Shown: positions 1,137 through 29,867 of the stretch, in pieces
Layout: each line of letters opens with the position of its first letter
Numbering within the stretch: the stretch's first letter is position 1
From: Kordia antarctica
GTDB lineage: Bacteria > Bacteroidota > Bacteroidia > Flavobacteriales > Flavobacteriaceae
Direction: 5' to 3'
DNA length: 64,000 nt
Assembly (NCBI RefSeq): GCF_009901525.1
Contig: NZ_CP019288.1
Coordinates: 4,059,501-4,123,500, forward strand
Position numbers and translations under genes: made by a program
Notes under the pieces: generated by a model
Told to the model about the DNA's origin: nothing
What the model saw: only the letters and a program-made list of their open reading frames with translations
Databases searched by the model: none

Positions 1137-2330
1137 TTAGTTATTGATTTTTGTTAGTTGTTCAGTTTCTGGTACTATTACAGTTTCGGTTGTTTTTGGT
1201 GTTAATTCAGGTTTTAAATATTCAAACATTCTGGCAGCGACCAATTGATTTCCTAATTCGCCAGTATGGCAAAAATCACTAAAAATCGTTTTGTCAGAAG
1301 CATCAAACACATCGCTAATATCTATAAAAGTGCTATCATTTTTCATCAACGAATTTTTCCGAACCGTTTCATACGACAAGTCATATAGGTTTTCATAATA
1401 CTGCTGATCGCGAAAATAACCTTGTTCAGCTTCAGTTAGGTTCTCTTTTGAATAAATTACTGGCTGTAAAAAATTGAACACTTTAAAATTGTAATTGTCT
1501 TCTAAACTTTTTGAAATTTTTACGTAACCTACATACGTGTCAGCAATGTCTGTTGCCAACGCATCCGAACGTTCGCCGAGTTGTATATATGCCGAATTTG
1601 TAAAGAGTTTTCGTTGCAATGTTGTGATAAATCGGTATAAATTACTAGACGTAATCATCAATTTAATGCGTTTCTTGTAATTGTGTGCAAGTTTGAATTC
1701 TTTCTTCCGATTATACCCATTTGATGGCAATCCGGCTTCGTTGTTTTGATGTGCCGAAATGACTTCGTTTACGCCATCATAAAAAATGACAATATCAGGA
1801 ATATTGTTTTTAATCAATTCTCGCTGAAGCTGAATATTCTCTGTAGCACGCGTATATCCGTGACACCCAAAATTAGTAATTTCTACATTTTGATCGGGAA
1901 AATTTGTGTGAATCAATTTTGATAATTCAGACGGAATTGTATGTGCATCGCGTGCGCCAGCGCTGTACATGGTAGAACCGCCAAAACAAAATATTTTTAA
2001 GGCTGTCGCCGAATCTTTCAAGCTGAGATTTACTGTTTTTCGGCGCCCATTTTCGTAAATTGTATTGTGTTTTCCGTTCATCGGTTTAAAACGATAATGC
2101 AAATATGGTTCCCATTGCATGTCTTGTTGACGAAGTTCTCTAAAAATTTCTTTGACAGTTTCATCTTCCAAACCATCAAATGCGCCAGAAGCAATAATGC
2201 GTTCAGTATTTCCATCAATTCCACTTTCATCATGATAACTGTAAAAAATTCCCAATCCAATTTCTAACAAAAGAAAAATGATGAGCACATTTCTGAATAA
2301 TATATAGGCAAATTTGAGTTTACTTTTCAC
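1137..2330 (-). CDS. Membrane-anchored SGNH/GDSL hydrolase (1 of 5 in this locus)
   Basis: 397 residues. One N-terminal membrane segment (about 12-32) anchors a periplasmic domain. SGNH blocks can be seen: FGGST with nucleophile Ser119, the block II glycine in NFGCHGY, block III GVNE with Asn188, and a C-terminal Asp352/His355 pair in SDFCHTGE. Proteins of this form next to an acyltransferase-3 gene often add or remove O-acyl groups on exported glycans; that role is inferred from context (acyltransferase gene 12 bp upstream). The last 20 residues are Thr/Glu-rich. The low identity to the other four SGNH proteins in the window, apart from catalytic blocks, suggests different substrates rather than recent duplication. 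Confidence 0.85.
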   Translation of the reverse strand: MKSKLKFAYILFRNVLIIFLLLEIGLGIFYSYHDESGIDGNTERIIASGAFDGLEDETVKEIFRELRQQDMQWEPYLHYRFKPMNGKHNTIYENGRRKTVNLSLKDSATALKIFCFGGSTMYSAGARDAHTIPSELSKLIHTNFPDQNVEITNFGCHGYTRATENIQLQRELIKNNIPDIVIFYDGVNEVISAHQNNEAGLPSNGYNRKKEFKLAHNYKKRIKLMITSSNLYRFITTLQRKLFTNSAYIQLGERSDALATDIADTYVGYVKISKSLEDNYNFKVFNFLQPVIYSKENLTEAEQGYFRDQQYYENLYDLSYETVRKNSLMKNDSTFIDISDVFDASDKTIFSDFCHTGELGNQLVAARMFEYLKPELTPKTTETVIVPETEQLTKINN

Positions 2331-2342
2331 GAATAAAACAGT

Positions 2343-3308
2343 TTATAAAATATACTTCAATTTTTTGTTCAGTTGAATCAACAAATAACTTGCAATCACA
2401 GAAAGTACAATAGTTACAAATGTTCTCACTGTGGGCGACAAAGAAACTACATTATAAATTAAAAAAATAATTAACGGATGCACTAAGTAAATTGCAATTG
2501 AATATGACGATACTAATTTACTATTCAAATTGGAGGTAATTTTGAACGTAAACGCTGCAATCAATAATGCTGGAGCCAAGAATACATAAGAAATATAGGT
2601 GTTAAGAATTGCTTCGCCAGTTATATAATAATACGTAATCAAATTCTCTGCAATTAAAAGTGTTAAACTTATAATGAGTAAATTTTTGACAAATTGTTTG
2701 CTGAGTTTCGTATGAAAATTTGTGCGTCGTATCACATAACCAATACTTAAAAGTGGTAATGCGAATAGCAAAAAATTTCGATGTAACGGAGGATAATTAA
2801 TCAACTTATCTAATATTGGTTGTTGTGAAAATACATGAAGTTGTCCTAAATATTGAATGACGATTCCAATCAAAAATAGAATAAAAGCACTTATAATTAA
2901 TAGCGTGTTTGAAGCATTCCGAAGTTGATACAATACCAATCCGCCAAGGATGAGCGCAGCCAAATACCATAAATGATTAAAACCAAATAGGAATGTTGAA
3001 ATAATTTTTAACAAATTAAAGTCATTTAAATACACCCAAAAATAGCTGTAAATCAACATCCAAATGAGATATAAAATACCAACGCGTTTTGTCCAAGTTT
3101 GTATGCGATTATTTTTAAATACAGTAAATAAAAAGAAACCGTTCACACAGAAAAAAAACGGAACGGCAATTCTGAAAATTCCGTTTGTAACAATTTGAGA
3201 TGCTAATTCACTATATTCAAACAAAAAGCCGCAATGTGTGCCAATCACAAAAAGTGAAGCAATGACTTTTAAAATATCGAGCAATATATTCCGCGAAGTT
3301 TTTTGCAA
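2343..3308 (-). CDS. Acyltransferase family 3 membrane protein
   Basis: 321 residues with about ten hydrophobic segments. The N-terminus (residues 8-30) carries the family's DILKVIASLFVIGTH pattern, with His25 in the first membrane segment; this His is the conserved catalytic position of acyltransferase-3/OafA-type enzymes, which move acyl groups (usually acetyl) across the membrane to sugars. The FRIAVPFFF-NGFFLF stretch near residues 46-63 is also typical. It has no fused SGNH domain, but SGNH genes lie on both sides of the operon (12 bp downstream and two genes upstream), so a two-protein O-acylation system is a reasonable inference. The stop of the upstream methyltransferase is 5 bp away. 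Confidence 0.85.
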   Translation of the reverse strand: MQKTSRNILLDILKVIASLFVIGTHCGFLFEYSELASQIVTNGIFRIAVPFFFCVNGFFLFTVFKNNRIQTWTKRVGILYLIWMLIYSYFWVYLNDFNLLKIISTFLFGFNHLWYLAALILGGLVLYQLRNASNTLLIISAFILFLIGIVIQYLGQLHVFSQQPILDKLINYPPLHRNFLLFALPLLSIGYVIRRTNFHTKLSKQFVKNLLIISLTLLIAENLITYYYITGEAILNTYISYVFLAPALLIAAFTFKITSNLNSKLVSSYSIAIYLVHPLIIFLIYNVVSLSPTVRTFVTIVLSVIASYLLIQLNKKLKYIL

Positions 3309-3313
3309 ATCGG

Positions 3314-3970
3314 TTATAATTTTTGAATACTAAAGATATAGTTTTTCTCTTTGACAACACTTTTTTCTAAAATAAGTGCAAACGAAAGTCCGTTTTTAGA
3401 AGCGAGTTGTTTAATATGTTCTATTTCGCAATCTTCTGATAAAATCATCCACGTATTTGGAGCAATATGTTGTGGAAGTTGGGCAAATAATTTTTCAAAA
3501 TACTCGAAATTTTCTCCGCAAAACCAAGCACGTTCTTTATCATTTTTCGGTGCTTTTGGATAATATGGCGGATTTATAATAATATACTCAAATGTTTTAT
3601 CAACTAAATTTTCAAACAAATCAGAATAGACAATAGTTACATCAATTTCATTTTTGATAGCAGCGAGTTTTAACTCGCCAATTGCAATTTGATTAATATC
3701 AGAAGCAATCACTTTTGCACCTTTAGAAGCCGCAAACAAGGAAATAATTCCAGAGCCGCAACCGAGTTCTAAAAAGGTTTTATTGGTTAAATTTAATGGT
3801 TTTATAAAATCGAGCAGAATTTTTGTGCTTAACGTAAAATGTGGCGGAAATACTTCTGCGCTGATCTTGACTTCAATGCCTTCATATGTATAACTTCGTT
3901 GTTTCAAAGTATATTTGTCAAAGGCGAATTTCGCAACAGGAAATATGATTTTTTTAAGTTTCTTAAACAT
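3314..3970 (-). CDS. Class I SAM-dependent methyltransferase with NPPY motif
   Basis: 218 residues. The SAM-binding motif ELGCGSG is at residues 68-74, the acidic residue of motif II is in ASDIN, and motif IV is NPPY (133-136). NPPY is characteristic of enzymes that methylate a planar nitrogen (HemK/PrmC, RlmF, N6-adenine types), so an N-methylation is more likely than O-methylation; this is family knowledge and the substrate is unknown. The gene lies 11 bp downstream of a B12-type radical SAM gene. The same gene order (radical SAM, then methyltransferase) occurs twice more in this window. Confidence 0.85.
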   Translation of the reverse strand: MFKKLKKIIFPVAKFAFDKYTLKQRSYTYEGIEVKISAEVFPPHFTLSTKILLDFIKPLNLTNKTFLELGCGSGIISLFAASKGAKVIASDINQIAIGELKLAAIKNEIDVTIVYSDLFENLVDKTFEYIIINPPYYPKAPKNDKERAWFCGENFEYFEKLFAQLPQHIAPNTWMILSEDCEIEHIKQLASKNGLSFALILEKSVVKEKNYIFSIQKL

Positions 3971-3981
3971 ATTTCTGAGAA

Positions 3982-5502
3982 TTATTCTGAATAGAAACCT
4001 TCAATTTCTGGCTGACGATATTTCCAAATTTTATGTAAAACTTTAATCTCGTACGGAAATTTATACCAACCATATTTAAAACGATAACCAGAAACTAATT
4101 TCAGCAACCATTTTTTATAGCCTTTAATTCTGAAATCGGAAGCAGTTGGATAATAGCCATTTAGCACCGTTTCAAAATTCTGAATCGTATCAATCATATA
4201 CGGTTTTAACCAAGGCGTTAGCGGATTTCTTCGCAAATCGAATTTTTCCCAACTTGGTTCAATCCATTCTTCCAATTTCTCTGGAAATGAAAAACCTGCG
4301 TTTACAATTTGCTGATACAACTCCGAACCTTCTGTCGGCACCGGACTGTACAAATAAATAATAATTTCCGCATCTTCATTAATTGCTTTTATCTCACGAA
4401 TAAAATTAATATCCCATAAAATCTGTTCGTAGACTTTCTTTTCGTTTGGTCCAGGCAAACCTAACACAAACGATAATTCAGGAATAATATCGACATTTTT
4501 CATGCGTTTCACAAAATCTTTAATCATTTGACCAGATTGTGTTCCACCTTTATTCATCTGCTTCAACACTTCATCGTTTCCAGTTTCTGCACCCAAAAAC
4601 ATCATCCGACAACCTGCTTTTCGCATTAAGTGTAATTCCTCGTCGGAGTATTTATTAATCGTATCAATTCGTCCTTCGCCCCACCATTCTATATTGTCAT
4701 CTATGACGAGTTTGGAAAATTCCATCACACGTTTTTTGGACGTAAAAAAGTTATTATCGTGAAACTCTACGGCGTCAATATTGTACTCTTTTTTGAAATA
4801 TTCTATATCTTTATAAACTGTCGGTGCAGCTTTTGCTTTCCATTTTGCGTTGTAAATTGGCACAACCGCACAAAAAGAACAACTAAACGGACAACCCATA
4901 CTTGAGTGATACGCAAATGTTCTTCTTCCCATAAAAGTCTTTGCCAAATAATTTTCTAACGGATAAAACGTGTTGAAATATTCATACGGATACTGCGGTA
5001 ATGAATCTTGATCGAGCAATGCTTCTTTTACGGTTTGCACAATTTTGCCTTCCTCATTTTTAAAAATCAAGTTGCGAATCAACATGAGTTTTTCGTCACT
5101 TTTCCCTTCTAAAACATCTAATAATTGCGGAAACGTATTGTCGCCAGGGCCATTAATAATATAATCCACATACCCAGAATTCATACAAGGTTTATATTGG
5201 TTTGAAGCAAAATATCCGCCCCAAATATTGATTGCTTCTGGATACAATTCCTTAATCTTTCGAGCAAACGGAATTGCTTGTTTCAATTGTGGTCCAGGCA
5301 TCACTGTGAGACAGAAATACTTGTATTCGCCCGTAGCAAAATAATTAGAAATCTTTTCCCACGGATCCGTTTCCATGTTTCCATCAACAAAAACATATTC
5401 ATATTTTCCATGAATTGCGGCACCAACTTGAATAATAGTATTCGGCAATCGATGCTTTGCATTGGCACTTCTTGGATTGAATATGATGATTTTATTTCCC
5501 AT
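3982..5502 (-). CDS. B12-binding-type radical SAM protein (1 of 4)
   Basis: 506 residues. Residues 1-190 resemble the cobalamin-binding Rossmann domain of this superfamily, with VDGNMETDP near 39-47 and WGGYFAS near 94-100; the classical DxHxxG histidine for lower-axial B12 ligation is not visible. The radical SAM cluster motif is GCPFSCSFC (Cys204, Cys208, Cys211). A downstream FHDNNFF and GAETGNDEVL pattern is typical of the radical SAM barrel. Family members methylate or rearrange unactivated carbons in lipids, sugars and natural products. Its start codon overlaps the stop of the upstream SGNH gene by one base (TAATG), so the two are probably translationally coupled. Confidence 0.88.
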   Translation of the reverse strand: MGNKIIIFNPRSANAKHRLPNTIIQVGAAIHGKYEYVFVDGNMETDPWEKISNYFATGEYKYFCLTVMPGPQLKQAIPFARKIKELYPEAINIWGGYFASNQYKPCMNSGYVDYIINGPGDNTFPQLLDVLEGKSDEKLMLIRNLIFKNEEGKIVQTVKEALLDQDSLPQYPYEYFNTFYPLENYLAKTFMGRRTFAYHSSMGCPFSCSFCAVVPIYNAKWKAKAAPTVYKDIEYFKKEYNIDAVEFHDNNFFTSKKRVMEFSKLVIDDNIEWWGEGRIDTINKYSDEELHLMRKAGCRMMFLGAETGNDEVLKQMNKGGTQSGQMIKDFVKRMKNVDIIPELSFVLGLPGPNEKKVYEQILWDINFIREIKAINEDAEIIIYLYSPVPTEGSELYQQIVNAGFSFPEKLEEWIEPSWEKFDLRRNPLTPWLKPYMIDTIQNFETVLNGYYPTASDFRIKGYKKWLLKLVSGYRFKYGWYKFPYEIKVLHKIWKYRQPEIEGFYSE

Positions 5503-6485
5503 TAGTTGTTGAATATGTCATTTCTATTGGCTAAAATATAACTTGAAAGCTTCTCTGCAAAGATTTGGTTCGCTTTTCCGTTCGGATGCGGATCTAATTC
5601 GTTCACAATATAGTTGAATAGATTTTTATCTTGAAAAAACTCAGAAACATCTAAAAACAGTAAATTGTTTTTTTTAGCTAATGCTTGAATTTGTTGAACG
5701 CGAACTGAATCATACACCAAATCCATATAAAAAACGAGTCCTTTGCTATTATTTTTGGTTAAAATATCTTGAAATATTTGAAACTGTTCGTCCATATATT
5801 GCACATGTTCAGCTTCATATACAATTGGTTTCTGTTTTTGAGATTTTAGTTTGATGCTGAGTAGTTTCTTTAAATACGAATCCCAAAAAACATTTTTTCT
5901 TGGTTTAATGGTAAAATCGTCCATAGAAAAATCGGTGCCAATACGATAATGATCGTTAGAAGCACAAAACCCAATAACCACCAAATCTGGATTGTGTTTT
6001 AAGGCATTTCGTTCTAAAATCGTTATATAATTTGTCAACGCATAACCAGAAACGCCATAGTTGAATACTTTATAGTTGAATTCTGTAGCTGATTTATTCA
6101 ACATGTTTTCTGTTTGTGGAACATACATTTCTTCTTCATGCACGCCAGTTCCCATGGTGAATGAATCACCCAAAACAGCAATCTTTTTATCACTTAGATA
6201 TACTTCATCATACCGACCACGGAAACCTTCAGCATTGGTATGAAAATCGGCAAGTTTGTATTTGGTGTCTAAATTTGGAAGTAATTCATAAGTCAATTCA
6301 TCTGAATCGGAATATTTCAGCAAGCCTGAATTATCTAAAATTCCAAACGAATTTGTGCGTGAATATGAAAACGCCGCGCTACCAAAAAAATAGACTCTGG
6401 CAACAATTTCTCCCAAAAATAGACTGAGTAAAAGCCCAATTCCGATGGAAATAATTTTAAATTTTAGATTCTTCATTGAAGTCAT
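5502..6485 (-). CDS. Membrane-anchored SGNH/GDSL hydrolase (2 of 5)
   Basis: 327 residues with an N-terminal membrane segment (about 8-26) and an extracytoplasmic SGNH domain. Nucleophile Ser108 is in VLGDSFTMG, the block II glycine is in NYGVSGY, Asn178 is in GFCASNDH, and the C-terminal Asp298/His300 pair is in ELDPHPN. A second ATG at codon 4 (6474-6476) could also be the start. It heads the run of genes down to terC at 295 and is separated by 57 bp from the radical SAM/SPASM gene upstream. Confidence 0.85.
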   Translation of the reverse strand: MTSMKNLKFKIISIGIGLLLSLFLGEIVARVYFFGSAAFSYSRTNSFGILDNSGLLKYSDSDELTYELLPNLDTKYKLADFHTNAEGFRGRYDEVYLSDKKIAVLGDSFTMGTGVHEEEMYVPQTENMLNKSATEFNYKVFNYGVSGYALTNYITILERNALKHNPDLVVIGFCASNDHYRIGTDFSMDDFTIKPRKNVFWDSYLKKLLSIKLKSQKQKPIVYEAEHVQYMDEQFQIFQDILTKNNSKGLVFYMDLVYDSVRVQQIQALAKKNNLLFLDVSEFFQDKNLFNYIVNELDPHPNGKANQIFAEKLSSYILANRNDIFNN

Positions 6486-6542
6486 ATAAACTTTTTGAAA
6501 TGTAGCGAAAATTTAAGATTTTTTGCTTTAATAAAGCCTTTA

Positions 6543-7622
6543 CTAAAAAGCACTACAACATCTACTGCAGGCAGTCAATAAACCGCCATTTTCATGTAAT
6601 GTTGCTCTGAATTTTTTTAGCACACGACCATTCCAAATTTGCTTTAGATTTTCATCGTAAATATTTCCGAGTGTTAAATTATAACATCTTCCATGTGCAG
6701 GAATCACACTTCCGTCAGATTTTATCATGATATTGGTAAAAACGTCATTGCACATTTTTCCAATGATTTTTTCTGGTTTGTGATAAAACTCATGAAGCTT
6801 TTCTTTGGAAGCTATTTCTGGAGAAAAACTCACGGGAAACTTATAATTGGCTGCTTTAATTTCTGAAATTTCTTGCCAAAGTACGTCTAAATCAAAATTA
6901 TCAATATTAACTTCATCTACGTTAGAAGCTGTTGCAGGATAAGATTGTGCCCAAATTTCATTGTGCGTATCCGCAATATGTTGTTTCGTAAAATTTGAAT
7001 GCATAAACCCAATTTGACCTAACGGATATTCCTTGAAAAAATCTAAAAATTCCTTTAAATAGCCAATATTCCATTCAGTAATCACGCAAAATATAGAAAT
7101 CGAAGCTTTTGGTTGCAAACGCAATAATTCTTCGATGCCTTCCACAGCTTTTTGAAACGATTTTTTATGACCTCTAATTTCGTTGTGAATATCTTGTGGT
7201 CCATCTAAGGAAATGTATAAATCTGTAACATTATTCTCAGCTAAAATCTTTGCTTTCTGTTTTAACGTTAATGCATTTGTTGTAATCGACGTTTGTACAT
7301 TTTTCTTTTTGGCATATTCCAAAGAAGCTTTTAAATGCGGATATACCAAAGGTTCTGTAAATGCATATCCCAATTTTGATTTTGGATAATGCAATGCCAT
7401 TTCGTCAATAATTTTTTCAATCAAAGGCAAAGGCATATTAATTGGATGTGTTCCTACTAAATTTTGCGCAAAATTAGTATCTAAACTTTTTGTGCCAACA
7501 TCACACATTTTACAATGCAAATTACAAACATTATTCACGCCAAGAACAATCCATTCAGGAGAAAAAAGATAGTTTTGTGGTGCGTACTTTTTGTTAATAT
7601 TTTTAAGCAATGTAGAACTCAT
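6543..7622 (-). CDS. Radical SAM protein with SPASM-like C-terminus
   Basis: 359 residues. The [4Fe-4S] motif is VCNLHCKMC (Cys33, Cys37, Cys40). The C-terminal part has the cysteine arrangement of SPASM/twitch domains: MCNDVF, the phrase SDGSVIPAHGRCYNLTLGN, then a terminal ACSRCCSAF. SPASM enzymes bind extra iron-sulfur clusters and act on peptides, sugars (for example the 2-deoxystreptamine dehydrogenase BtrN) or protein side chains. There is no B12 domain, unlike the other four radical SAM proteins here. It is divergent from the SGNH gene at 7755, so a sugar substrate in the same glycan pathway is the working idea. The clustered cysteines in the last eight residues are unusual. Confidence 0.82.
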   Translation of the reverse strand: MSSTLLKNINKKYAPQNYLFSPEWIVLGVNNVCNLHCKMCDVGTKSLDTNFAQNLVGTHPINMPLPLIEKIIDEMALHYPKSKLGYAFTEPLVYPHLKASLEYAKKKNVQTSITTNALTLKQKAKILAENNVTDLYISLDGPQDIHNEIRGHKKSFQKAVEGIEELLRLQPKASISIFCVITEWNIGYLKEFLDFFKEYPLGQIGFMHSNFTKQHIADTHNEIWAQSYPATASNVDEVNIDNFDLDVLWQEISEIKAANYKFPVSFSPEIASKEKLHEFYHKPEKIIGKMCNDVFTNIMIKSDGSVIPAHGRCYNLTLGNIYDENLKQIWNGRVLKKFRATLHENGGLLTACSRCCSAF

Positions 7623-7714
7623 CGATGAATTGTAATTTTTGATAAAGATACATAAGTATCAAGGGATTTCTAATTTTTTTTTGGTGTGAATAAAGATTCT
7701 TCTCGCAGAGACTG

Positions 7715-7754: not shown

Positions 7755-8876
7755 TTGCTTAAAAAGTATATTTTCAAACCGCTCAAAAACCTGATTATCA
7801 TTTTCGGGATTACGTTTATTTTGCTCGAAATTGTACTCGCAATCTACATTCGCACAGCAGAAATAAAGATAGAATTGCCAACGTATACGTTTCAAAATAC
7901 ACAGAATTTTTGGTTTGATTTGAATGAAGATTTTGGCACAATTCATTTGCCAAATGATGTGTACAGACAGAAGAAATATTGTTTTGATGTTGTGTATGAA
8001 TCAAATTCAAAAGGCTTTCGCGATGCAGAACGAGAAGTAATTGCTGAAACCAAAAGAGTTGTAGCATTAGGCGATTCGTTCACGGAAGGAATTGGCGTGC
8101 AAGTGGAAGATCGCTTGACAAATTTACTTGAACAAGAAACAGCAATTCCACACCTCAATTACGGATTAGCAGGAAATTTTGGGCCTACACAATATTTTAT
8201 GTTATATAAAACGCTTGCGCGAGAATATACACATGAAGCAGTTTTAGTCGGAATTTTACCTTCCAATGATTTTATTGATGACGATTATGAAATTGGTTTG
8301 CGATTTGGAAGTGACAGATATCGTCCGTTTTTAAAAGGCAACTATCCAAACTTTGAAATGGTATATCATACGGATAGTATTCACAAATCTAAAGCGTTGC
8401 CACGAAAGCAAAACTTCATCAACAAGGTTTTAAAGAACTTTACAAACTCATATAATATGTATAATTATATGCGTGTCATGCGAAGAGTAAAAGCAATCCC
8501 GCAAGATAAACTGTTGGAAGCTTCCAAAGTGCCAAGTTATTTCAACTATTCTGAGAAGCAATTCAATCGGATGCGATATACAATTGAAGAAATTAAAAAA
8601 CTGGCAGGAAATCGTCCTGTAATGATCTATAGTATTCCGATTGAGAAAGAAATTAAGGCATATCGTGAACACGGAAAAAATCCGTTAGGAAAAGAACTCA
8701 AAGCAGTTTGTGACAGCATTAATGTTGAATATTTAGACTTGTTGCCAAAAACAGAAAACTTCACAGAAGAAGAATATAAAGCATTATTTTTATCTTGTGA
8801 CGGACATTGGAGCGAAGCAGGAAATGCATTCGCGAAAAAACATATTGAATCGTATTTTAGCTACTATAAAAAATGA
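7755..8876 (+). CDS. Membrane-anchored SGNH/GDSL hydrolase (3 of 5)
   Basis: 373 residues with a membrane segment at about 12-32. Nucleophile Ser108 is in ALGDSFTEG, the block II glycine is in NYGLAGN, Asn171 is in PSNDF, and Asp349/His351 are in CDGHWSEAGN. The frame is closed upstream by a TGA at 7725-7727 and contains no ATG before the membrane segment, so TTG at 7755 is the likely start; a -7 element at 7715-7722 fits it. The stop codon overlaps the next gene's start (ATGA), which couples it to a membrane glycosyltransferase. Confidence 0.83.
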   Translation: MLKKYIFKPLKNLIIIFGITFILLEIVLAIYIRTAEIKIELPTYTFQNTQNFWFDLNEDFGTIHLPNDVYRQKKYCFDVVYESNSKGFRDAEREVIAETKRVVALGDSFTEGIGVQVEDRLTNLLEQETAIPHLNYGLAGNFGPTQYFMLYKTLAREYTHEAVLVGILPSNDFIDDDYEIGLRFGSDRYRPFLKGNYPNFEMVYHTDSIHKSKALPRKQNFINKVLKNFTNSYNMYNYMRVMRRVKAIPQDKLLEASKVPSYFNYSEKQFNRMRYTIEEIKKLAGNRPVMIYSIPIEKEIKAYREHGKNPLGKELKAVCDSINVEYLDLLPKTENFTEEEYKALFLSCDGHWSEAGNAFAKKHIESYFSYYKK

Positions 8877-18906: not shown

Positions 18907-18909
18907 ATG

Positions 18910-21690: not shown

Positions 21691-22429
21691 GATTCAAACT
21701 AAAAAAGTAATCGTTGTACTTCCTGCGTATAATGCTTCGGAAACACTGCAAAAAACGTACGAAGAAATTCCGTTTGATATTGTTGATGAAGTCGTTTTGG
21801 TGGATGATAATAGTACTGACGAAACACTTCGAGTTGCGAAAGAATTAGGCATCATACATGTATTGAAACATGATGAAAATAAAGGGTATGGCGCAAACCA
21901 GAAAAGTTGTTATAGGAAGGCTTTATCGTTAGAAGGCGATATTATTATTATGTTGCATCCTGATTATCAATACACGCCAAAATTGATTCATTCCATGGCA
22001 TATTTGATTGCAAATGATGTGTATCCTGTAGTAATGGGATCGCGGATTTTAGGAAAAGGCGCATTGCGCGGCGGCATGCCAATGTATAAATATATTGCGA
22101 ATCGTTTTTTGACTTTATTTCAAAATATAGTAATTGGTCAAAAGTTATCCGAATATCATACAGGTTTCAGAGCTTTTTCTGCGGAAGTATTAAATTCATT
22201 GAACTTAGAACACAATTCAGATGATTTCATTTTTGATAATCAAATGTTGTGTCAAATCTTTCACAAAGGTTTTGAAATTGCCGAAATTACCTGTCCAACC
22301 ACATATTCCGAAGAAAGTTCATCTATTAATTTTCAACGAAGTATGACGTATGGTTTGGGCGTTTTGAAAGTTTCAGTTCAATATTTTTTACACAAAAAGA
22401 AACTCATGTCGTTTCAAATCTTCAAATAG
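21689..22429 (+). CDS. Glycosyltransferase family 2 (dolichol-phosphate-mannose synthase-like)
   Basis: 246 residues. GT-A fold with VVLPAYNASETL (9-20), the nucleotide-binding VDDNSTDET (38-46), and MLHPDYQY for the metal site, followed by RILGKGALRGGMP and TGFRAFS. This matches the polyprenyl-phosphate sugar synthase group. Such enzymes make the lipid-linked sugar donors used by GT39-type enzymes, and one of those is encoded divergently next to it. It lacks C-terminal membrane segments. The stop is 31 bp before the radical SAM gene, so they probably form one operon. Confidence 0.88.
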   Translation: MIQTKKVIVVLPAYNASETLQKTYEEIPFDIVDEVVLVDDNSTDETLRVAKELGIIHVLKHDENKGYGANQKSCYRKALSLEGDIIIMLHPDYQYTPKLIHSMAYLIANDVYPVVMGSRILGKGALRGGMPMYKYIANRFLTLFQNIVIGQKLSEYHTGFRAFSAEVLNSLNLEHNSDDFIFDNQMLCQIFHKGFEIAEITCPTTYSEESSSINFQRSMTYGLGVLKVSVQYFLHKKKLMSFQIFK

Positions 22430-22460: not shown

Positions 22461-23879
22461 TTGAAAAAACACAAAATCCTCCTATATAATCCACTAGCCG
22501 TATTTTTTGACATGCCTTTAGCCTTGTTGGCGATTGGTTCTGTGTTGGATCCTGAGAAATATGAAGTCATTATTGTAGATGGTCGTATTGATGAAAATCC
22601 TTTGGAAACCATTGGAAAACATATTGACGATGCGTTGTGTTTTGGAACTTCAGTTTTAACGGGAAAACCTATAAAAGATGCGTTGGCTGTGACGCAAGCC
22701 GTTAAAAAGATGCGTAAAGATATTCCTGTTATTTGGGGCGGATGGCATACATCATTGTTCCCAACGCAAACCTTGAAAGATGAAATTTGTATTGATGTTA
22801 CGGCGCAAGGACAAGGAGAAGACACATTTCAAGAATTGGTAGAAGTATATGCAACTAATGGCGATGTTTCTGATGTGAAAGGAATTTGTTACCGAACTGA
22901 TGAAGGCGAAATTATAAAAAATCCGCCGCGTGTTATTGTTGCAATGGACACGTTTGCAGACATCAATTATGAATTGATTGATGTTGAAAAATATTTTGAA
23001 AAGAAAGGAAGACGACAATTGGATTATATTTCTTCGACTGGTTGTTATTTTAGATGTACTTTTTGTGCTGATCCTTTTGTATATAACAGAAAATGGACAG
23101 CCATTTCACCAGAAATTATGGTGAATAAATTAGCAGAGTTACAAGCAAAATATAAATTTACAGATGTAAATCTTCAAGATGAAACCTATTTCACATACCG
23201 AGATCGCGTAATTGAGATTTCAGAACTTATGATTGAAAAAGGATTGAATTTTACGTGGGCAGCAACAATGCGCGCCGATCAAGGTTCAAGAATGTCTGTG
23301 GAAGATTTCAAAATTTGTGCAAAATCTGGATTGCGACGTTTACTTATTGGAGTCGAATCTGGTTCGCAAGAAATGATGGATTGGCTTAAAAAAGATATTA
23401 AACTGGAACAAGTATATATGTGTGCCGAACGTTGTAAAGACTTAGGTATTGCCGTACAATTTCCATTTATTGTTGGTTTCCCAGAAGAAACTGATGAAAG
23501 TATCCGAGAAACAGTAAAAGTTGCACTCGAATTGAATAGTATGCATCCAAATTTTCACACACCAATTTTCTACTTTAAACCATATCCTGGAACTACGATT
23601 ACACAAAACGTTGTGAAAGATGGCTACAAATTACCAGAAACGGTTCACGAATGGTCAGATTTTGACTTTGTAGGTTCGTCAGGACCTTGGGTAAGTGCTG
23701 AGAAATATGATTTTTTCGAGAAGTTTAAATTTTACTTAAAATTTGCATATTCTAACCAGAAAATGATTTACAAACCATTGCAATTAATAGCAAGATGGCG
23801 TTGTAAGCACAAATATTTTAACATTCCTGTGGAGAAGAAAATTGTAGATACTTTCTTTAAGAAACAGCAACTTGCATGA
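22461..23879 (+). CDS. B12-binding-type radical SAM protein (2 of 4)
   Basis: 472 residues starting at TTG (22461); no closer ATG precedes the conserved KILLYNPLA strand. Residues 1-180 are the B12-type Rossmann domain with FFDMPLALLAIGSVL and IPVIWGGWHTSLFP (88-101). The cluster motif is GCYFRCTFC (Cys195, Cys199, Cys202), with a QDETYF and GVESGSQEMM pattern in the barrel. Unlike the other three B12-type copies it is not followed by a methyltransferase gene, but by repeat DNA and the convergent SGNH gene. It shares the transcript with the GT2 gene. Confidence 0.85.
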   Translation: MKKHKILLYNPLAVFFDMPLALLAIGSVLDPEKYEVIIVDGRIDENPLETIGKHIDDALCFGTSVLTGKPIKDALAVTQAVKKMRKDIPVIWGGWHTSLFPTQTLKDEICIDVTAQGQGEDTFQELVEVYATNGDVSDVKGICYRTDEGEIIKNPPRVIVAMDTFADINYELIDVEKYFEKKGRRQLDYISSTGCYFRCTFCADPFVYNRKWTAISPEIMVNKLAELQAKYKFTDVNLQDETYFTYRDRVIEISELMIEKGLNFTWAATMRADQGSRMSVEDFKICAKSGLRRLLIGVESGSQEMMDWLKKDIKLEQVYMCAERCKDLGIAVQFPFIVGFPEETDESIRETVKVALELNSMHPNFHTPIFYFKPYPGTTITQNVVKDGYKLPETVHEWSDFDFVGSSGPWVSAEKYDFFEKFKFYLKFAYSNQKMIYKPLQLIARWRCKHKYFNIPVEKKIVDTFFKKQQLA

Positions 23880-23914
23880 TGTACGATTTTTGATTGCTGA
23901 TTTTTGATTTTTTT

Positions 23915-23988: not shown

Positions 23989-24016
23989 TTTCAATTCATA
24001 ATCTTAAAAGTCTAGT

Positions 24017-24083
24017 TCGTCAGATCGAGTGAATTTGTGAAACAAATTTGTATCGAGATCTTCTTTGAAACTCGAATTAACGG
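24017..24083. repeat. Dispersed palindromic repeat, family A, truncated copy 4
   Basis: CGTCAGATCGAGTGAATTTG, then TTGTATCGAGATC, then ACTCGAATTAACGG. Shorter than the other copies (67 bp), with one inner arm lost. Confidence 0.6.
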
Positions 24084-24140
24084 TATGAATTTATTAAGTT
24101 AAGTTGCGAAAACTCATAACCCAAAACTCACAACTTTCCT

Positions 24141-25250
24141 TCACTCTTTCAGCAACATTTTTAGCGATTGCGCAATCTGATCTGAAGTCAATTCCGCGCC
24201 AGATTCATTGAAGTGAAAATCGTCATAGAAAGATTCCGTAGTTTTCGGAAGTTTCAAATCTACATAGGAAATATTGTTTTGATCGCAGACTTTCATCAAT
24301 CGTTCATTAAAAACTTCCATGCCTTCATAAAATGCTTTCGTACTATAAAATGCTTCGTTGTTGGCAAATCCGCTTGTAACCATTAAATCTTCGTATTTTT
24401 TTTCTAAATCAGGTTTCCACATCGTGGCTTGCGTTACGAAAACTAACTTAATTTTCTTTTCGTTTGCTTGCTTTATGAGGTCTTTAATATTCTTTTCATA
24501 ATGAGCTAAACCAGCTGTTAAATCGGGTAATTCATCAATAATTTTAGATTTTTGTTTTAATAGTTTGATGTCTTCAACTGCTTTTGTCAAATGGTCACTA
24601 TGTTTAAAATAAAACAAAATATTTCTCTTTGCGCTAGAACCTAATTTGTACAAGGTAAATCGTTTGTAAAAAGGAAGATGATCGTCAGGAATATGCTGAA
24701 AAGCAAAACGTTTCAAGTCTTTATTTGGAGAGTTTAGATAGCTATCAGCTGAAATTAAATACGCAACAAAATCGTTCACGCCTTGCATAATGACAACTGT
24801 TTTTACATCACTCAATTCAGGTTTTTCTAATATATGTTTAAACTGCAATACATGATGATTGCTACTATTTCCGGGTCTTCCAAAATTTCCAACCCAATAT
24901 GAATCGCCTAATTTTTTCTCCAATAATGCGGGCCAATCTTTTGATTGTGTCAATGCAAAACAAGCTGTTGTACTTCCGCCAAAAACGACAATTTTATGTT
25001 CTTTATCTTGATACTTTGAAATTGATCTCGCGCCTAATTCATCAAAGGAAACTTCCGAATCTTGATAAATTCCTGTAATTTCTTCTGAATTTATTTTCCA
25101 AGTAAATCCAGAATTTGGAGTCATTGTATAATAATCAGCAGGGAAAAGTTGAAAAAATGACAATATAATTTCTACCAAAACCAATAGAATCAATGTGAAA
25201 ACACCTGAGAGTGCTAATTTTTTAAGGAATTGTTTCGAAAATAACTTCAT
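24141..25250 (-). CDS. Membrane-anchored SGNH/GDSL hydrolase (5 of 5)
   Basis: 369 residues with a membrane segment at about 12-35. Nucleophile Ser93 is in VVFGGSTTACFA, the block II glycine is in NFGRPGNSSNHH, Asn159 is in MQGVNDF and Asp344/His346 in DDFHFNESGAEL. GGST rather than GDS links it to copy 1 more than to copies 2-4. It is the last gene of a three-gene unit with a methyltransferase (33 bp upstream) and a B12-type radical SAM gene. Confidence 0.85.
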   Translation of the reverse strand: MKLFSKQFLKKLALSGVFTLILLVLVEIILSFFQLFPADYYTMTPNSGFTWKINSEEITGIYQDSEVSFDELGARSISKYQDKEHKIVVFGGSTTACFALTQSKDWPALLEKKLGDSYWVGNFGRPGNSSNHHVLQFKHILEKPELSDVKTVVIMQGVNDFVAYLISADSYLNSPNKDLKRFAFQHIPDDHLPFYKRFTLYKLGSSAKRNILFYFKHSDHLTKAVEDIKLLKQKSKIIDELPDLTAGLAHYEKNIKDLIKQANEKKIKLVFVTQATMWKPDLEKKYEDLMVTSGFANNEAFYSTKAFYEGMEVFNERLMKVCDQNNISYVDLKLPKTTESFYDDFHFNESGAELTSDQIAQSLKMLLKE

Positions 25251-25283
25251 GAAAATAATTTTTATAAGTATACTGAAAACTCT

Positions 25284-26027
25284 TTAATGTATTACGTACC
25301 ACGAAAATGGCGAATCTTTTTTGCCTAAAATCTTATGAATGATATTCCGTTTATATGAATACAAAACATCAAAATGTTGGACTAAATTTTTGTTGTGATG
25401 ATGATAATTCGCTGCCATTTCTGGAACACCTAGTTTGGTATAATATGCTTTTGTGCGTTCTTTTGCGGCAGGAATTTCAGAAGCTTCATAAAAAGGACTG
25501 TCTATAATATGAATTTCTCCTTTTGGCTTTAAAAACGATTTCAACAACGTTATTAATCCTTCAAAATCTTTAAAATATTGAACAGCACCATTTAATGTAA
25601 TGACATCAAATTTCGCTTCAAACTGTTCGGAAACTTTGAAAATATCTGCGTAGACAAAATGTAAATTCTCTTTACGAAAAATGCGCGCTGCTTGTTCTAA
25701 TTCTTCACGATTTACATCTAAACCAATCACTTGATTTTTTTCAGAAACTTCCGCAATTGTATTTGAAAACCAACCATTTCCACAACCAATATCCAAAATT
25801 TGCAAGTCATTATTTTTACAAGCAATATAATTCACAAAACGTTCTGTAGATTTTACTCGAAAAACCCATTCATTACGTTGTAAATAAGGTAATTGTCTAA
25901 CTTCTGCATCTGTCAAAATACGATTTTCTTTTTCGCGCACAGCGAGATAATGCTTTGAAAAATTAGCATTTTCAGGCGTCAAATAATAAACGTTCTCTTG
26001 TTGTATGATGTGACTAAAATCTAGCAT
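25284..26027 (-). CDS. Class I SAM-dependent methyltransferase
   Basis: 247 residues. Motif I LDIGCGNGWFS is at 78-88, the acidic residue is in GLDVNREEL, and motif IV is ITLNGAVQYF. An N-terminal 60-residue helical part precedes the Rossmann fold. The family includes O- and C-methyltransferases and the substrate is unknown. Its ATG overlaps the stop of the radical SAM gene by one base (TAATG), an arrangement that implies translational coupling and a joint pathway step. Confidence 0.85.
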   Translation of the reverse strand: MLDFSHIIQQENVYYLTPENANFSKHYLAVREKENRILTDAEVRQLPYLQRNEWVFRVKSTERFVNYIACKNNDLQILDIGCGNGWFSNTIAEVSEKNQVIGLDVNREELEQAARIFRKENLHFVYADIFKVSEQFEAKFDVITLNGAVQYFKDFEGLITLLKSFLKPKGEIHIIDSPFYEASEIPAAKERTKAYYTKLGVPEMAANYHHHNKNLVQHFDVLYSYKRNIIHKILGKKDSPFSWYVIH

Positions 26028-27412
26028 TATTTATATAATTTCATTGCAGTTTGCGCTAGAAGCGATTTCGTTTTCAGCTTTGCAGCAATAATCAAATTTC
26101 TATTTTTTCCTTTAAGAATTTCCTTGTTATAATTTACTTCATTGACAATTCGCCGAACGGCAAAATCATAAAATTTTCTTGAATACGTTCGGGTAAAATC
26201 AATGTCACGATCCGTTGAAGTATTCCATTCAGGTTGCACCGTAATTTTATCTTCAATTTCATTATACAACGAAGTTCCTTTAATTGGATACGCAATTGTA
26301 ATTGTAAAATGTGTCGGATTTGCCGCTTTTAAATACGCAATCGTTTCGTTGATATCTTGTTCGTCTTCGCCAGGATACCCAACCATAATAAACGTTCCTG
26401 TTTCAATACCAAGTTTGTTCGTTTTCTGAATCGCTTCTTTTACAACATTCACATCTACACGACGATCCATTGCGTCAATAATTTTCTGCGAACCGCTTTC
26501 TGCGCCAATCCAAATTCGGAAACAACCAGCTTCTTTCAGTAATTGTAAAATATGATCGTTCAAACGTTCGGCGCGCGTGATACATTCAAACGGAATTATG
26601 GCATCTTGTTTTATCACTTCTTCATGAAAACTTTCAATCCATTTAAAGCTTACGCTGAATACATCATCTACAAACCAAATTCCATCAGGATTGTACGTTT
26701 CTTTCAACATTTTTAATTCGGCAGCGACCATATTTGCAGGTCTTCTTCGGTAACTTTGCCCGTAAACTGCCGTGCTACACCATTTGCACGTATACGGACA
26801 ACCGCGTTGTGTACTTACCGTCATCGAACTTTGTCCGTGATGTGTTTTCCATGTTTCTAAATATTTTTGAACAGGAATTGCAGCTCTATTTGGCAATGGC
26901 AATTCTTGTAAACTTTTCATTTTTACGCGTGGCGGCGTTTTTTTGACTTCATCATTTTCTAAATACGCAATTCCTGTAATTTCATGTATATCGGAATCAT
27001 TTTCAATTGCTTGATACAATTCTAATGTTGTTTGTTCGCCTTCGCCAATAATCAAATAATCAACGCCTGTATTGAGGTAATTTTCACAATTATACGTAAT
27101 ATCTGGTCCGCCCAAAATAATTTTTGGAAAACCGTATTTCTTGTCTGTTTTTAGAATATTTACCAACTTGATTACGTTGATTTTTGTCATCAAATTAGCG
27201 TAAATCGCAATAGTTTTTGGTTGCTTTTCTTCAATAAAAAGGAGTTGATCTTTTTTAGAATAAAATGTAGAGTCATACACATGATTTTCTACTTTATGTT
27301 CATTCAAATACGAAGAAATATATAATAAACCCAACGGCGCATACGGACGCATGATGCTTTGTTCTTTCTCATCTTCAAAAAGATAATATGTGTGTGTGAG
27401 AATGATGCTCAT
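26027..27412 (-). CDS. B12-binding-type radical SAM protein (3 of 4)
   Basis: 461 residues. The N-terminal domain has YAPLGLLYISSYL (24-36), ILGGPDITYN (99-108) and the YLIIGEGEQT switch (119-128), the pattern of B12-type Rossmann domains. The cluster motif is GCPYTCKWC (Cys205, Cys209, Cys212), followed by WFVDDVF and GAESGSQKII. Closest in style to the copy at 28404. First gene of a three-gene unit; a 213-bp gap separates it from the next unit upstream. Confidence 0.88.
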   Translation of the reverse strand: MSIILTHTYYLFEDEKEQSIMRPYAPLGLLYISSYLNEHKVENHVYDSTFYSKKDQLLFIEEKQPKTIAIYANLMTKINVIKLVNILKTDKKYGFPKIILGGPDITYNCENYLNTGVDYLIIGEGEQTTLELYQAIENDSDIHEITGIAYLENDEVKKTPPRVKMKSLQELPLPNRAAIPVQKYLETWKTHHGQSSMTVSTQRGCPYTCKWCSTAVYGQSYRRRPANMVAAELKMLKETYNPDGIWFVDDVFSVSFKWIESFHEEVIKQDAIIPFECITRAERLNDHILQLLKEAGCFRIWIGAESGSQKIIDAMDRRVDVNVVKEAIQKTNKLGIETGTFIMVGYPGEDEQDINETIAYLKAANPTHFTITIAYPIKGTSLYNEIEDKITVQPEWNTSTDRDIDFTRTYSRKFYDFAVRRIVNEVNYNKEILKGKNRNLIIAAKLKTKSLLAQTAMKLYK

Positions 27413-27597
27413 TTTGTCGCTGTTCGCTCTTTTGTTAATTTGTTGATTCGTGGGTTTGTTTCAACATTGTAAATATAAAGATGTTTTGATGACTTCTAAA
27501 GTGTAATGTTGTGTATTTCCTTATTTATAATATAGTTATATACAATTCTGAAAAAGAGTTGAACAACAGTAATAATAACTAGATAAATGTTGAATTT

Positions 27598-27632
27598 CAA
27601 ATAAACAAATAAACAAATAAACAAATCAACAA
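27598..27632. repeat. 8-bp tandem repeat
   Basis: Four near-perfect units of AAATAAAC run into the 3' end of the methyltransferase gene at 27626. The tract probably varies in copy number by slippage. Confidence 0.55.
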
Positions 27633-28411
27633 CCCAGCTCAAGTTCAATCAAAAAATGATCTGCGTATTTTGCTAATGCAGAAGCTGTTAAAATGGAATC
27701 TAATCCTTTGAAAATGTTTAACATCGGAAATTTAGCTACAAATGACTGTTCTAAGTACGATGGCGGAATTGTGACACCAATCGGTTTTATCTTTTTTGTT
27801 GTGTAAAATTTGTTCGCTATGGCGGAAATATCTTGTGGGTTGTAATACCAAGTTTCTACGCCAACGCCATCAACATTGGCAACAACGCTTTTTGTGGTGT
27901 TTCTGCGATTTGCTTTCGTTTTGTCTCCTTTTAAGGTAAAATAGAAACGTTCCCAAAGGCAATTTTTAGGCATTAAAACCAAGACTAATTTTCCGTTTGG
28001 AAGTAGTAAATCGCTTGTTTTTTTTATGAAATCGTGTAGCTGTTCGTGCGATAAACAATTAATTCCACCAAAATCAGAGAAAATTAAATCGAATTTTTTG
28101 TCAAAAGTGTTCTCTGTAATTGTATTGATATCTTGAACTTTAAATTCTAAGTTTTTTGGATGATTTTTTGCTTTCGCGATTGCAATCATTCCTTCTGAAA
28201 TATCTGTTGCAATTACATCATGATTCATCGCTGCAAACGAAATTGCATCTGCGCCAGTTCCACAATTTAATTCTAAAATGGATAGTTTTTTCTCTTGTGA
28301 AATGATTGGATTTATATACTTAAATACCAACTTTCGTTGCGCTTTTCCAATGTTTGAATACGTGAAAATATCATCATATAATGGCGCGGCTACATCAAAA
28401 TCGCTATGCAT
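27626..28411 (-). CDS. Class I SAM-dependent methyltransferase
   Basis: 261 residues. Motif I is ILELNCGTGADAISFA (about 45-60), the ribose-binding acid is in VIATDISEGM, and a FSDFGGINCLSH segment stands at motif IV. An Asn replaces the usual Gly in ELGCGTG. It overlaps the upstream radical SAM gene by 8 bp. The protein is not a close copy of the methyltransferase at 25284, although both follow a B12-type radical SAM gene. Confidence 0.85.
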   Translation of the reverse strand: MHSDFDVAAPLYDDIFTYSNIGKAQRKLVFKYINPIISQEKKLSILELNCGTGADAISFAAMNHDVIATDISEGMIAIAKAKNHPKNLEFKVQDINTITENTFDKKFDLIFSDFGGINCLSHEQLHDFIKKTSDLLLPNGKLVLVLMPKNCLWERFYFTLKGDKTKANRRNTTKSVVANVDGVGVETWYYNPQDISAIANKFYTTKKIKPIGVTIPPSYLEQSFVAKFPMLNIFKGLDSILTASALAKYADHFLIELELGC

Positions 28412-29867
28412 TGGTAGGTTTCATGTTTTTAAGTTGAATTTTATCTAAAAATGCTGATGGAACATAATATCCAAAAAGCAACATTGATCGTACTTGTGTT
28501 TTTGTAACTGAAAATGGATTTTTGAAGAATTTCTTAAAGTTTTCTATCGCTTGACTTTTACGATATTCTTTATGAACATATCGTTGCAATTTTCTATAAA
28601 ACTCCGTACTGAATGTTCCGTTAAACATCATTGCTAAATCGTCAGAATCTGTCCAATTGGCTTTTAGTTGTAAATCGTCTTTTACTTTGTCGTAAAATTT
28701 AGTTCCTGGAAGCGGATACGAAACCGAAATTCCAATATTATCAGGAACCAATTCTTTTATCATATCAATTGTCTTCTGAATATCTTCTTTGGTTTCTTCC
28801 AAATATCCAAATTGAATGAAGAATGCCACACGCACATTTTTTGCTTTCAACAAACGTGTCGCTTCATAAATTTGCTCCACTTTGGTTTCTTTGTCCATTG
28901 CGTCCAAAATAGCTTGCGAACCACTTTCTGCACCAACCCAAACTTCTTCCAAACCACTTTCTGCCAACGCATCAATGGTATCTTCTTTCAATAATAAATC
29001 AACACGACTTTGTATGTAATACGAAATAGAAAGTTGTGCTTTTTTAAGTTCAATATTAAAATTTTGAACCCAATTCGGCTTTAAACCAAAAATATCATCA
29101 CACATCCAAAAACGGTTTACACCGTAGGTTTCACTCAAATATTTTATATGTTTTGTGATATATTCGGGAGAATGTGAGTTATACCGATTTCCATAAATTG
29201 GTTTTGCACACCAATTACATTTAAACGGACAACCACGTGTTGTTGCCATATTTAGCGTGAATTCATTTCCGCCGTTTTCCCAAATCTTTCGGTAGGATTC
29301 TACATCAATTAAATCCCAAGCTGGCATTGGTAATTCGTCCAAATCGCGCAAAACTGCATGTTTCGGATTCTTTATAATTTCTCCGTTTTTCTCGAAAACG
29401 AGTCCTTTTATGGAATCTGTATTTTCATTGTTTGATAATGCATCAACCAATTCCTTTAACGAAATTTCGCCTTCTCCTTGAATGACAAAATCTGCGCCAG
29501 CTTCTAAATATTTTTCATAATGATCTGTAGAATCTGAACTACAAACAATGATGTTACAATTGAGTTTTTTAGCAATTTTAATCATTTCAAAAGCGGCTTC
29601 ACGCATTGTGGTTAAGCACATTTTTGTCAAATAATTAAAGCCATCATCATACAAAACAAATGTTTTCGGTGTGTGTTTTTCTAAGTATGGTTGAATCGTT
29701 TTTGGATCGTCTAATAAATTCGCGTCAAACACACCAACTTTATAACCGTTTTCACGCAAATACGAAGCTGCATACAAAGTTCCCAATGGCGGATATGGTG
29801 TTTGATTTTTCCATTGTTTGGAATCAAACTTATAATAATACGAATGTGAAAAAACAACATCAAGCAT
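28404..29867 (-). CDS. B12-binding-type radical SAM protein (4 of 4)
   Basis: 487 residues. The N-terminal domain shows TPYPPLGTLYAASYLREN (23-40) and FVIQGEGEISL; the cluster motif is GCPFKCNWC (Cys213, Cys217, Cys220), followed by WMCDDIFG and GAESGSQAIL. The barrel sequence is close in pattern to that of the copy at 26027. It overlaps the methyltransferase gene by 8 bp downstream and the nucleotidyltransferase gene by 8 bp upstream, so all three are one tightly packed transcript. Confidence 0.88.
   Translation of the reverse strand: MLDVVFSHSYYYKFDSKQWKNQTPYPPLGTLYAASYLRENGYKVGVFDANLLDDPKTIQPYLEKHTPKTFVLYDDGFNYLTKMCLTTMREAAFEMIKIAKKLNCNIIVCSSDSTDHYEKYLEAGADFVIQGEGEISLKELVDALSNNENTDSIKGLVFEKNGEIIKNPKHAVLRDLDELPMPAWDLIDVESYRKIWENGGNEFTLNMATTRGCPFKCNWCAKPIYGNRYNSHSPEYITKHIKYLSETYGVNRFWMCDDIFGLKPNWVQNFNIELKKAQLSISYYIQSRVDLLLKEDTIDALAESGLEEVWVGAESGSQAILDAMDKETKVEQIYEATRLLKAKNVRVAFFIQFGYLEETKEDIQKTIDMIKELVPDNIGISVSYPLPGTKFYDKVKDDLQLKANWTDSDDLAMMFNGTFSTEFYRKLQRYVHKEYRKSQAIENFKKFFKNPFSVTKTQVRSMLLFGYYVPSAFLDKIQLKNMKPTNA

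Follow-up and report, generated by a model that had tools for sequence, protein, structure and literature searches.

The subject of this study is a 64,000-nucleotide stretch of Kordia antarctica DNA (contig NZ_CP019288.1, positions 4,059,501 to 4,123,500; hereafter the window), in which an earlier note had described a recurring unit consisting of a B12-type radical S-adenosylmethionine (SAM) gene followed by a methyltransferase gene. Comparison with related loci shows that this pair is only partly a true unit. The unit that is kept is a head composed of four genes, which we call NT, RS4, MT4 and RS3, and its constant element, headed by the nucleotidyltransferase-like gene NT, had been missed by the note. 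The explanation that we find most plausible, and hold tentatively, is that the window carries a modular glycan locus, the glycan being lipid-linked and exported, and that the constant head of this locus makes an unusual building block. The head and the genes directly behind it are the following (window positions):

29860..30765, minus strand: NT, with a winged-helix-like N-terminus and a putative Pol-beta-type nucleotidyltransferase part; first gene of the head module
28404..29867, minus strand: RS4, B12-type radical SAM protein, core of the head module (PF04055, 1.1e-20; PF02310, 8.1e-8)
27626..28411, minus strand: MT4 (clade b), class-I methyltransferase (Pfam), overlapping RS4 by 8 bases
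26027..27412, minus strand: RS3, second B12-type radical SAM protein (Pfam), an ancient paralogue of RS4
25284..26027, minus strand: MT3, class-I methyltransferase (Pfam), optional partner of RS3
24141..25250, minus strand: SGNH5, SGNH/GDSL protein of the MT3 cassette (PF13472, 2.2e-13), N-terminus hydrophobic by eye

NT heads this row of genes and overlaps RS4 by 8 bases. Its position is fixed in the relatives. We compared the best 80 of 462 confirmed RS4 matches in named genomes, a set picked by RS4 and with RS4 66-90% identical to that of the window; the best-matching named loci belong to Kordia, with RS4 up to 90% identical. The record titles of 78 loci name Flavobacteriaceae, Flavobacteriales or genera that we take to be members of Flavobacteriaceae, and the other two are a Bacteroidia metagenome-assembled genome (MAG) and a MAG labelled Bifidobacterium breve. 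In all 80 loci the gene immediately upstream of RS4, on its strand, is NT. The gene that follows RS4 on that strand is MT4 in 73 loci, a member of the methyltransferase-like family c61 (Pfam match under cut-off) in four, an MT3-MT4 fusion in two (L054 and L055, where MT3- and MT4-like parts share one frame) and another short frame in one. Hence, a methyltransferase-like gene succeeds RS4 in 79/80 loci, and the earlier expectation that the order would be conserved in relatives is borne out for this pair. RS3 is present in 72/80 loci, fragments counted. Of 199 genomes sampled evenly across the family, 16 (our own among them) have RS4, and NT adjoins it in all 16, so it is the locus that is patchy and not the head. 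The upstream flank contains polA in 34/80 loci, directly before NT in 15 of them (38507-41338 in the window), so the chromosomal position of the locus is often the same. A DUF5916/CBM9 gene (30947-33574 in the window) is divergent from NT; a gene of this family takes up that divergent position beside NT in 11/80 loci. The Bifidobacterium-labelled record (L093) has flavobacterial gene content; its label is probably wrong.

The head extends beyond the family. A profile search with NT in 296 Bacteroidota genomes matched 26: our own, two more of the family, five of the class and 18 outside the class, the latter bearing ten family codes. The distant set was chosen by NT and comprises 20 of the 25 other matching genomes, five of the same class and 15 from outside it; not included were G279 and G477, which belong to our own family, G366, whose genus code is that of G277, and G315 and G216, with partial and weak matches. 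RS4 (38-60% identical) lies near NT in 19/20 of these loci, and an MT4-like match was found in 20/20 at 22-36% identity; at the low end of this range the protein might be a class-I methyltransferase of any kind. In 11/20 loci the order NT-RS4-MT4 is kept on one strand with no intervening matches. RS4 and MT4 form a single 727-residue frame in L150, and the MT4 of L148 is part of a fusion whose other stretch matches GT29 weakly (20.5 bits against a cut-off of 23). RS1, another B12-type radical SAM gene of the window, is present in 11/20 distant loci and RS3 in 3/20; both RS3 and RS4 occur outside the class. In a plasmid collection NT had no match, RS3 matched in 175 records, all at less than 60% identity (at most 26.9% among the ten matches listed), and RS4 in 29 records (at most 28.2% among the 12 listed). 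We also observed a TadA/cytidine-deaminase-like protein near NT-RS4-MT4 in L147, L143 and L149, with an N-terminal segment that is hydrophobic by eye (the L147 copy was scanned), and an RS1 match in all seven distant loci that carry an amidohydrolase gene (L135 and six others).

A more careful look at MT4 gives no support to the idea that radical SAM and methyltransferase genes travel as one repeated unit: in the trees the type of MT4 co-varies with RS3 and not with the RS4 that precedes it. In the MT4 tree, which leaves out L054, L055, L143, L150 and L153 (no MT4 row) and L148 (MT4 fused), clade MT4b has 74 rows with RS3 present in 73, whereas clade MT4a, made up of five loci of the 80-locus set and 13 distant genomes, has 18 rows with RS3 in none. 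The exception, which contradicts the rule that MT4b goes with RS3, is L030 (Kordia algicida), an MT4b locus without RS3. L141, L151 and L152 have RS3 and fall on long branches outside both main clades. L098 and L106 are short contigs, and the absence of RS3 there is therefore shown only for the slot behind MT4. The presence of RS3 changes 10 times on the RS4 tree (at least 7 of these forced by supported branches) versus twice on the MT4 tree; both trees are quick builds, and RS4 rows are missing for L142 and L152, the latter with a 38% tblastn match. In a comparison of independent pairs, MT4 type and RS3 changed together in 5/6 and in the opposite way in none (p 0.0625). Since the MT4 clades track the presence of RS3, MT4b-RS3 resembles one exchangeable block. 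It seems to be exchanged as a whole while the RS4 in front of it stays constant; of the two arrangements, NT-RS4-MT4a is probably the earlier.

The three pairs themselves lie on the minus strand where they had been reported: RS1-MT1 at 5502-3314, RS3-MT3 at 27412-25284 and RS4-MT4 at 29867-27626. The RS3/MT3 junction is indeed TAATG, with one base shared, the overlap of RS4 and MT4 is as described, and an SGNH gene lies next to each of the first two pairs (5502-6485 and 24141-25250). The gap between RS1 and MT1 measures 11 bases. The note spoke of four radical SAM genes; there are five, four of the B12 type and one of the SPASM type, and a fourth methyltransferase gene (FkbM) is present besides the three of the pairs. 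The pairs had been judged not to be recent duplicates, and we agree: RS3 and RS4 are 31% identical, the other radical SAM pairs 23-26%, and MT1, MT3 and MT4 are only distantly alike, which rules out a recent duplication. In the complete genome (5.5 Mb, one contig), Pfam places Radical_SAM at 24 sites, five of them in this stretch. Radical_SAM and B12-binding domains coincide at four sites among seven B12-binding places, domains missed by Pfam being invisible to this count, and all four are in this 26-kb stretch. Besides the head and the genes directly behind it, the locus contains the following genes:

22461..23879, plus strand: RS2, B12-type radical SAM protein (Pfam) without a methyltransferase partner
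21689..22429, plus strand: GT2 glycosyltransferase (PF00535, 1.5e-21)
20155..21690, minus strand: GT-C type glycosyltransferase, PMT_2 (PF13231, 4.1e-6)
18910..19953, minus strand: polysaccharide deacetylase-like protein (PF01522, 1.2e-19)
17980..18906, minus strand: GNAT acyltransferase (PF13527, 6.3e-9)
17115..17978, minus strand: FkbM-type methyltransferase (PF05050, 2.8e-15)
15866..16921, minus strand: GT4 glycosyltransferase (PF00534, 1e-21)
14734..15873, minus strand: multi-span membrane protein, flippase-like by appearance only (no Pfam match up to E 0.1)
12457..13506, minus strand: SGNH4 (PF13472, 1.2e-6, and PF16822 (AlgX), 1.6e-4, both under cut-off)
8873..10483, plus strand: GT-C type glycosyltransferase, PMT_2 (PF13231, 3.3e-14)
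7755..8876, plus strand: SGNH3 (PF13472, 4.9e-5, under cut-off)
6543..7622, minus strand: radical SAM/SPASM protein (PF04055 and PF13186; no B12-binding match)
5502..6485, minus strand: SGNH2 (PF13472, 1.4e-10), with a TAATG junction to RS1
3982..5502, minus strand: RS1, B12-type radical SAM protein of the second pair (PF04055, 1.3e-13; PF02310, 1.4e-5, under cut-off)
3314..3970, minus strand: MT1, partner of RS1 (PF05175, 1.9e-14), with an NPPY motif in the translation
2343..3308, minus strand: membrane acyltransferase, Acyl_transf_3 (PF01757, 3e-26)
1137..2330, minus strand: SGNH1, beside the acyltransferase (PF13472, 3e-4, under cut-off)

Three of the five SGNH-like genes of the stretch are thus under the Pfam cut-off. 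The window GT2 protein presumably resembles polyprenyl-phosphate-sugar synthases. Two further groups of genes lie beyond polA and upstream of the head. At 42204-47223, Asparaginase_2, peptidase S51 (cyanophycinase-like) and cyanophycin-synthase-like genes stand in a row and are perhaps a cyanophycin turnover set. At 49020-58082, a polysaccharide deacetylase gene and a TMEM260-like O-mannosyltransferase gene are followed by genes for an ABC transporter, an HlyD-like protein and OEP, which surround a tRNA-Gln gene.

Pairing of the two enzyme types is real at the level of gene neighbourhoods. The 98 related loci with an RS4 row contain 230 B12 radical SAM genes, whose downstream neighbour is on the same strand in 185 cases and on the opposite strand in 26, with 19 at an edge. 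The same-strand neighbour is a methyltransferase gene in 133/185 cases, compared to 24/588 for other genes. When RS4, by which most loci were picked, is excluded, the proportion is 43/90; leaving out c61 and c40, two families with weak support, gives 129/185 and 15/588. These counts are not independent because the loci share ancestry. Biosynthetic loci often contain radical SAM as well as methyltransferase genes, and it could be argued that the two are adjacent here by chance, in an island rich in tailoring genes and with no functional pairing. Such counts strongly disfavour this idea, as do RS1-MT1, the fusion of RS4 with MT4 and the joint exchange of MT4b and RS3, and we regard it as highly improbable. 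RS1 is followed by MT1 in all 24 RS1-holding loci of the 80-locus set (in nine inside the loci and in 15 after the loci were extended), making RS1-MT1 a second fixed pair within the family, though not outside it; the SPASM radical SAM gene directly precedes RS1 in 5/24 relatives. MT3, on the other hand, follows RS3 in only 27/78 RS3 frames, fragments included, and is optional, while no methyltransferase gene follows RS2 on the same strand in 17 cases, one of them at an edge. RS2 sits behind a GT2 gene in 12/16 relatives. What stands of the proposed pair unit is therefore RS1-MT1 within the family and the order RS4-MT4, with the type of MT4 varying with RS3.

Behind the head are alternative glycan cassettes. 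We tabulated co-occurrence in the 70 loci with at least 9 kb of downstream sequence (long loci) for 14 gene pairs that were chosen after inspection of the maps, with ancestry uncorrected. MT3 and the family c9 were never found together: c9 is present in 0/25 loci with MT3 and in 23/45 without it. SGNH5 is restricted to MT3-bearing loci (15/15), and a GT87 family accompanies c9, being present in 20/23 loci with c9 versus 0/47 without. All 26 c9 proteins contain a CxxCH c-heme motif, and their genes lie directly behind RS3 (17) or c26 (9), as in L083:12935-14050. A c-type cytochrome-like protein within a glycan cassette is odd.

The assignment of the radical SAM proteins rests on domains, motifs and a structural model. 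RS2, RS3 and RS4 score above the cut-off for the B12-binding domain PF02310, whereas RS1 falls below it (25.4 versus 32.1 bits) and is therefore a weak case. The CxxxCxxC motif is present in every counted protein longer than 400 residues (RS1 23/23, RS2 14/14, RS3 72/72, RS4 98/98). None of them has DxHxxG in its first 200 residues; absence of this B12 histidine motif is usual in the radical SAM class. In a tree of the four families with nine outgroup proteins on long branches, RS3 groups with RS4 as its sister, and RS1 and RS2 stand separately. The AlphaFold2 model of RS4 has a pLDDT of 82, dropping below 50 around the cluster loop, and is most like OxsB, MgmA and TsrM among cobalamin radical SAM enzymes and like AprD4, which is an aminoglycoside enzyme. 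The solved enzymes OxsB, MgmA, TsrM, TokK, CysS and AprD4 share CxxxCxxC with RS1-RS4 and the overall fold with RS4, but they are only 14-21% identical to RS4 in the structural alignments listed and their substrates differ. Membership of the HpnJ, BchE or PhpK family was rejected, as the best NCBIfam scores are 115-166 bits against cut-offs of 481-600. MT1, MT3 and MT4 all have a class-I methyltransferase domain above the Pfam cut-off.

NT has no match in Pfam, NCBIfam or the PDB sequences. Its AlphaFold2 model (pLDDT 90) has a helical, winged-helix-like N-terminus, and the paired acidic residues Asp112 and Asp114, of a kind expected in this fold along with a G-S motif, are invariant in 31/31 rows. 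The best Foldseek matches, MntA antitoxins and the aminoglycoside adenylyltransferases AadA and ANT(9), apparently share a Pol-beta-type nucleotidyltransferase core with NT, but all are weak (E 6e-3 or worse, none at E 0.001; TM-scores by query length 0.21-0.27). NT might instead regulate by adenylylating a protein, in the manner of MNT antitoxins, with the radical SAM and methyltransferase genes as independent tailoring genes. Its N-terminus, the MntA antitoxins at the top of the Foldseek matches and its position as the first gene of the module are what such a regulator would lead one to expect. However, the scores of AadA and ANT(9), whose substrates are small molecules, are close behind, RS4 is kept near NT in nearly all distant loci, and NT is flanked in the window by RS4 and the DUF5916 gene and not by a HEPN gene, for which no search was made elsewhere. 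We consider a purely regulatory NT improbable.

The glycan setting proposed for the locus is supported by its gene content. At least one of eight Pfam-backed glycosyltransferase clusters is present in 66/70 long loci and in 13/20 distant loci; the count excludes c26, which has no Pfam support and would raise the former to 67/70. The window holds GT2, GT4 and two GT-C genes, and no priming transferase was identified in it. One further cluster, c35, bears the Pfam name of a putative capsular polysaccharide synthesis protein, and the ABC transporter cluster c10 is, we presume, similar to PglK. That the glycan is exported is something we infer. None of the eight clusters is found in seven of the 20 distant loci, whose unlabelled frames were not scanned with Pfam: L143, L147 (a short contig), L148, with only its weak GT29 match, and L150-L153. 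These loci would be explained if NT-RS4-MT4 made a non-glycan small molecule, a lipid head group or a cofactor, and the glycan cassettes were merely its frequent neighbours or users. The conservation of RS4 (mean column identity 77% in 28 rows) relative to NT (60% in 31 rows) across loci with changing glycan genes also fits such a product. The frequency of glycosyltransferase clusters in both sets speaks against it, as does the possibility of unseen glycosyltransferases among the unscanned frames, and a non-glycan product is in our view a serious if somewhat unlikely alternative.

The nearest described systems resemble the locus in part. In gentamicin biosynthesis, the cobalamin radical SAM enzyme GenD1 C-methylates and GenN N-methylates the same aminoglycoside (PMC4340712). 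A B12-type radical SAM enzyme and a SAM-dependent methyltransferase thus share one scaffold, which by analogy is a precedent for carbon and heteroatom methylation of one molecule (PMC4340712). Gentamicin is, however, a soluble antibiotic, and neither an NT-RS4-MT4 module nor polymorphic glycan cassettes are described in that source. In the Bacteroidota protein O-glycosylation locus LFG, constant genes frame species-specific glycosyltransferases and the glycan carries methyl and acetyl groups (PMC12871550). LFG has metG and wzx at its start and two shared glycosyltransferases at its end, whereas here the constant genes are NT-RS4-MT4, with polA upstream in a part of the loci; the main text of that review has no occurrence of "Radical SAM". 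By the definition given there, the possibility of an LFG-type locus was rejected, as metG is absent from the scanned open reading frames of the window, the unscanned ones being at most 140 residues long or overlapping scanned genes. The term "c-methyl" does not occur in a review on marine lipopolysaccharides (PMC3210612). A full-text search of the open literature, covering listings, the starts of abstracts and some passages, returned no description of this system, and as far as such a search shows, the NT-RS4-MT4 head, which occurs within and outside the class, is undescribed.

Three nucleoside-acting accessory families recur in the loci and lend some support to a different chemistry, in which RS4 or RS3 attaches a 5'-deoxyadenosyl group that is then trimmed by optional deaminases and phosphorylases, or in which the accessory genes clear S-adenosylhomocysteine and 5'-deoxyadenosine. 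Attachment of this group is known from HpnH and MqnE. The phosphorylase family c24 is found in 12/80 loci, and its copy in L060 (14567-15310) has 5'-methylthioadenosine phosphorylase as the best PDB match. An amidohydrolase nearest to an aminofutalosine-deaminase model occurs in 7/20 distant loci (one member, L135:7151-8317, was scanned), and a TadA-like deaminase in 3/20 (one member, L147:6063-6641, was scanned). Yet all three families are optional and none was found among the window genes, the NCBIfam scores are all far below cut-off, and c24, like the GT2 gene c25 beside it, may be part of the adjoining operon. Clearance of by-products would account for the accessory genes just as well. Adenosyl chemistry of this kind is, we think, distinctly unlikely.

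The modular glycan locus remains our preferred explanation, and it builds on the gene families and motifs, the conserved order, the RS4-MT4 fusion, the co-variation of MT4 type with RS3 and the alternative cassettes. From these we infer a glycan product, C-methylation over another radical reaction, the use of B12, the order of the steps and the role of NT. NT-RS4-MT4 and the add-on RS3 would form the constant head and make one unusual unit. RS4, and then RS3, would alter an unreactive carbon by B12/radical SAM chemistry, most likely by C-methylation, and MT4 may methylate a hydroxyl or an amine of the same unit. NT would transfer a nucleotide either to the head unit, thus activating or tagging it, or to a partner protein. 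RS1-MT1 may perform a second modification of a carbon and a heteroatom elsewhere on the molecule, the GT2, GT4 and GT-C proteins would build the variable rest of the glycan, and the SGNH proteins with the membrane acyltransferase would O-acylate it in the periplasm. SGNH proteins and acyltransferases are a familiar pairing.

Several findings weigh against this explanation. In 9/20 distant loci the order of the head is broken: L139, L140 and L144 keep RS4 next to MT4 but have NT on the other strand, other genes lie between RS4 and MT4 in L136, L141, L151, L152 and L154, and L142 has no RS4. Outside the family, MT1 follows RS1 in only three of ten non-edge cases. The test of independent pairs has only five informative pairs (p 0.0625). 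AprD4, a near structural match of RS4, is a dehydratase, and RS1-RS4 score below the cut-off of every NCBIfam model listed for them. Of the long loci, 44/70 hold a gene from three clusters that look like transporters or flippases, but only the ABC transporter c10 (21/70) is backed by Pfam, and the flippase-like proteins tested gave no Pfam match above cut-off. Finally, the glycan nature of the head product is a weak step because of the seven distant loci in which glycosyltransferase clusters were not seen. This step and the role of NT are the weakest in the model.

A bolder version of the preferred explanation, which we consider unlikely but worth stating, is that NT-RS4-MT4 is an ancient and as yet undescribed pathway core of Bacteroidota. 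Radical C-alkylation, then methylation and nucleotidyl transfer would yield a new kind of envelope unit, perhaps by way of an adenosyl-derived intermediate that the deaminases and phosphorylases trim, and the unit would serve as a constant anchor for strain-specific glycans. Most of what is known of B12-type radical SAM enzymes comes from antibiotics, hopanoids, pigments and peptides. The RS4-MT4 fusion, the tracking of RS3 by the MT4 type and the alternative cassettes provide a short list of enzyme pairs that can be tested. If the preferred explanation is true, envelope molecules of many environmental bacteria would bear radical-made modifications for which there may have been no search. A small set of genes, found also in distant relatives within the phylum, may thus make an unusual chemical group common to many bacteria.

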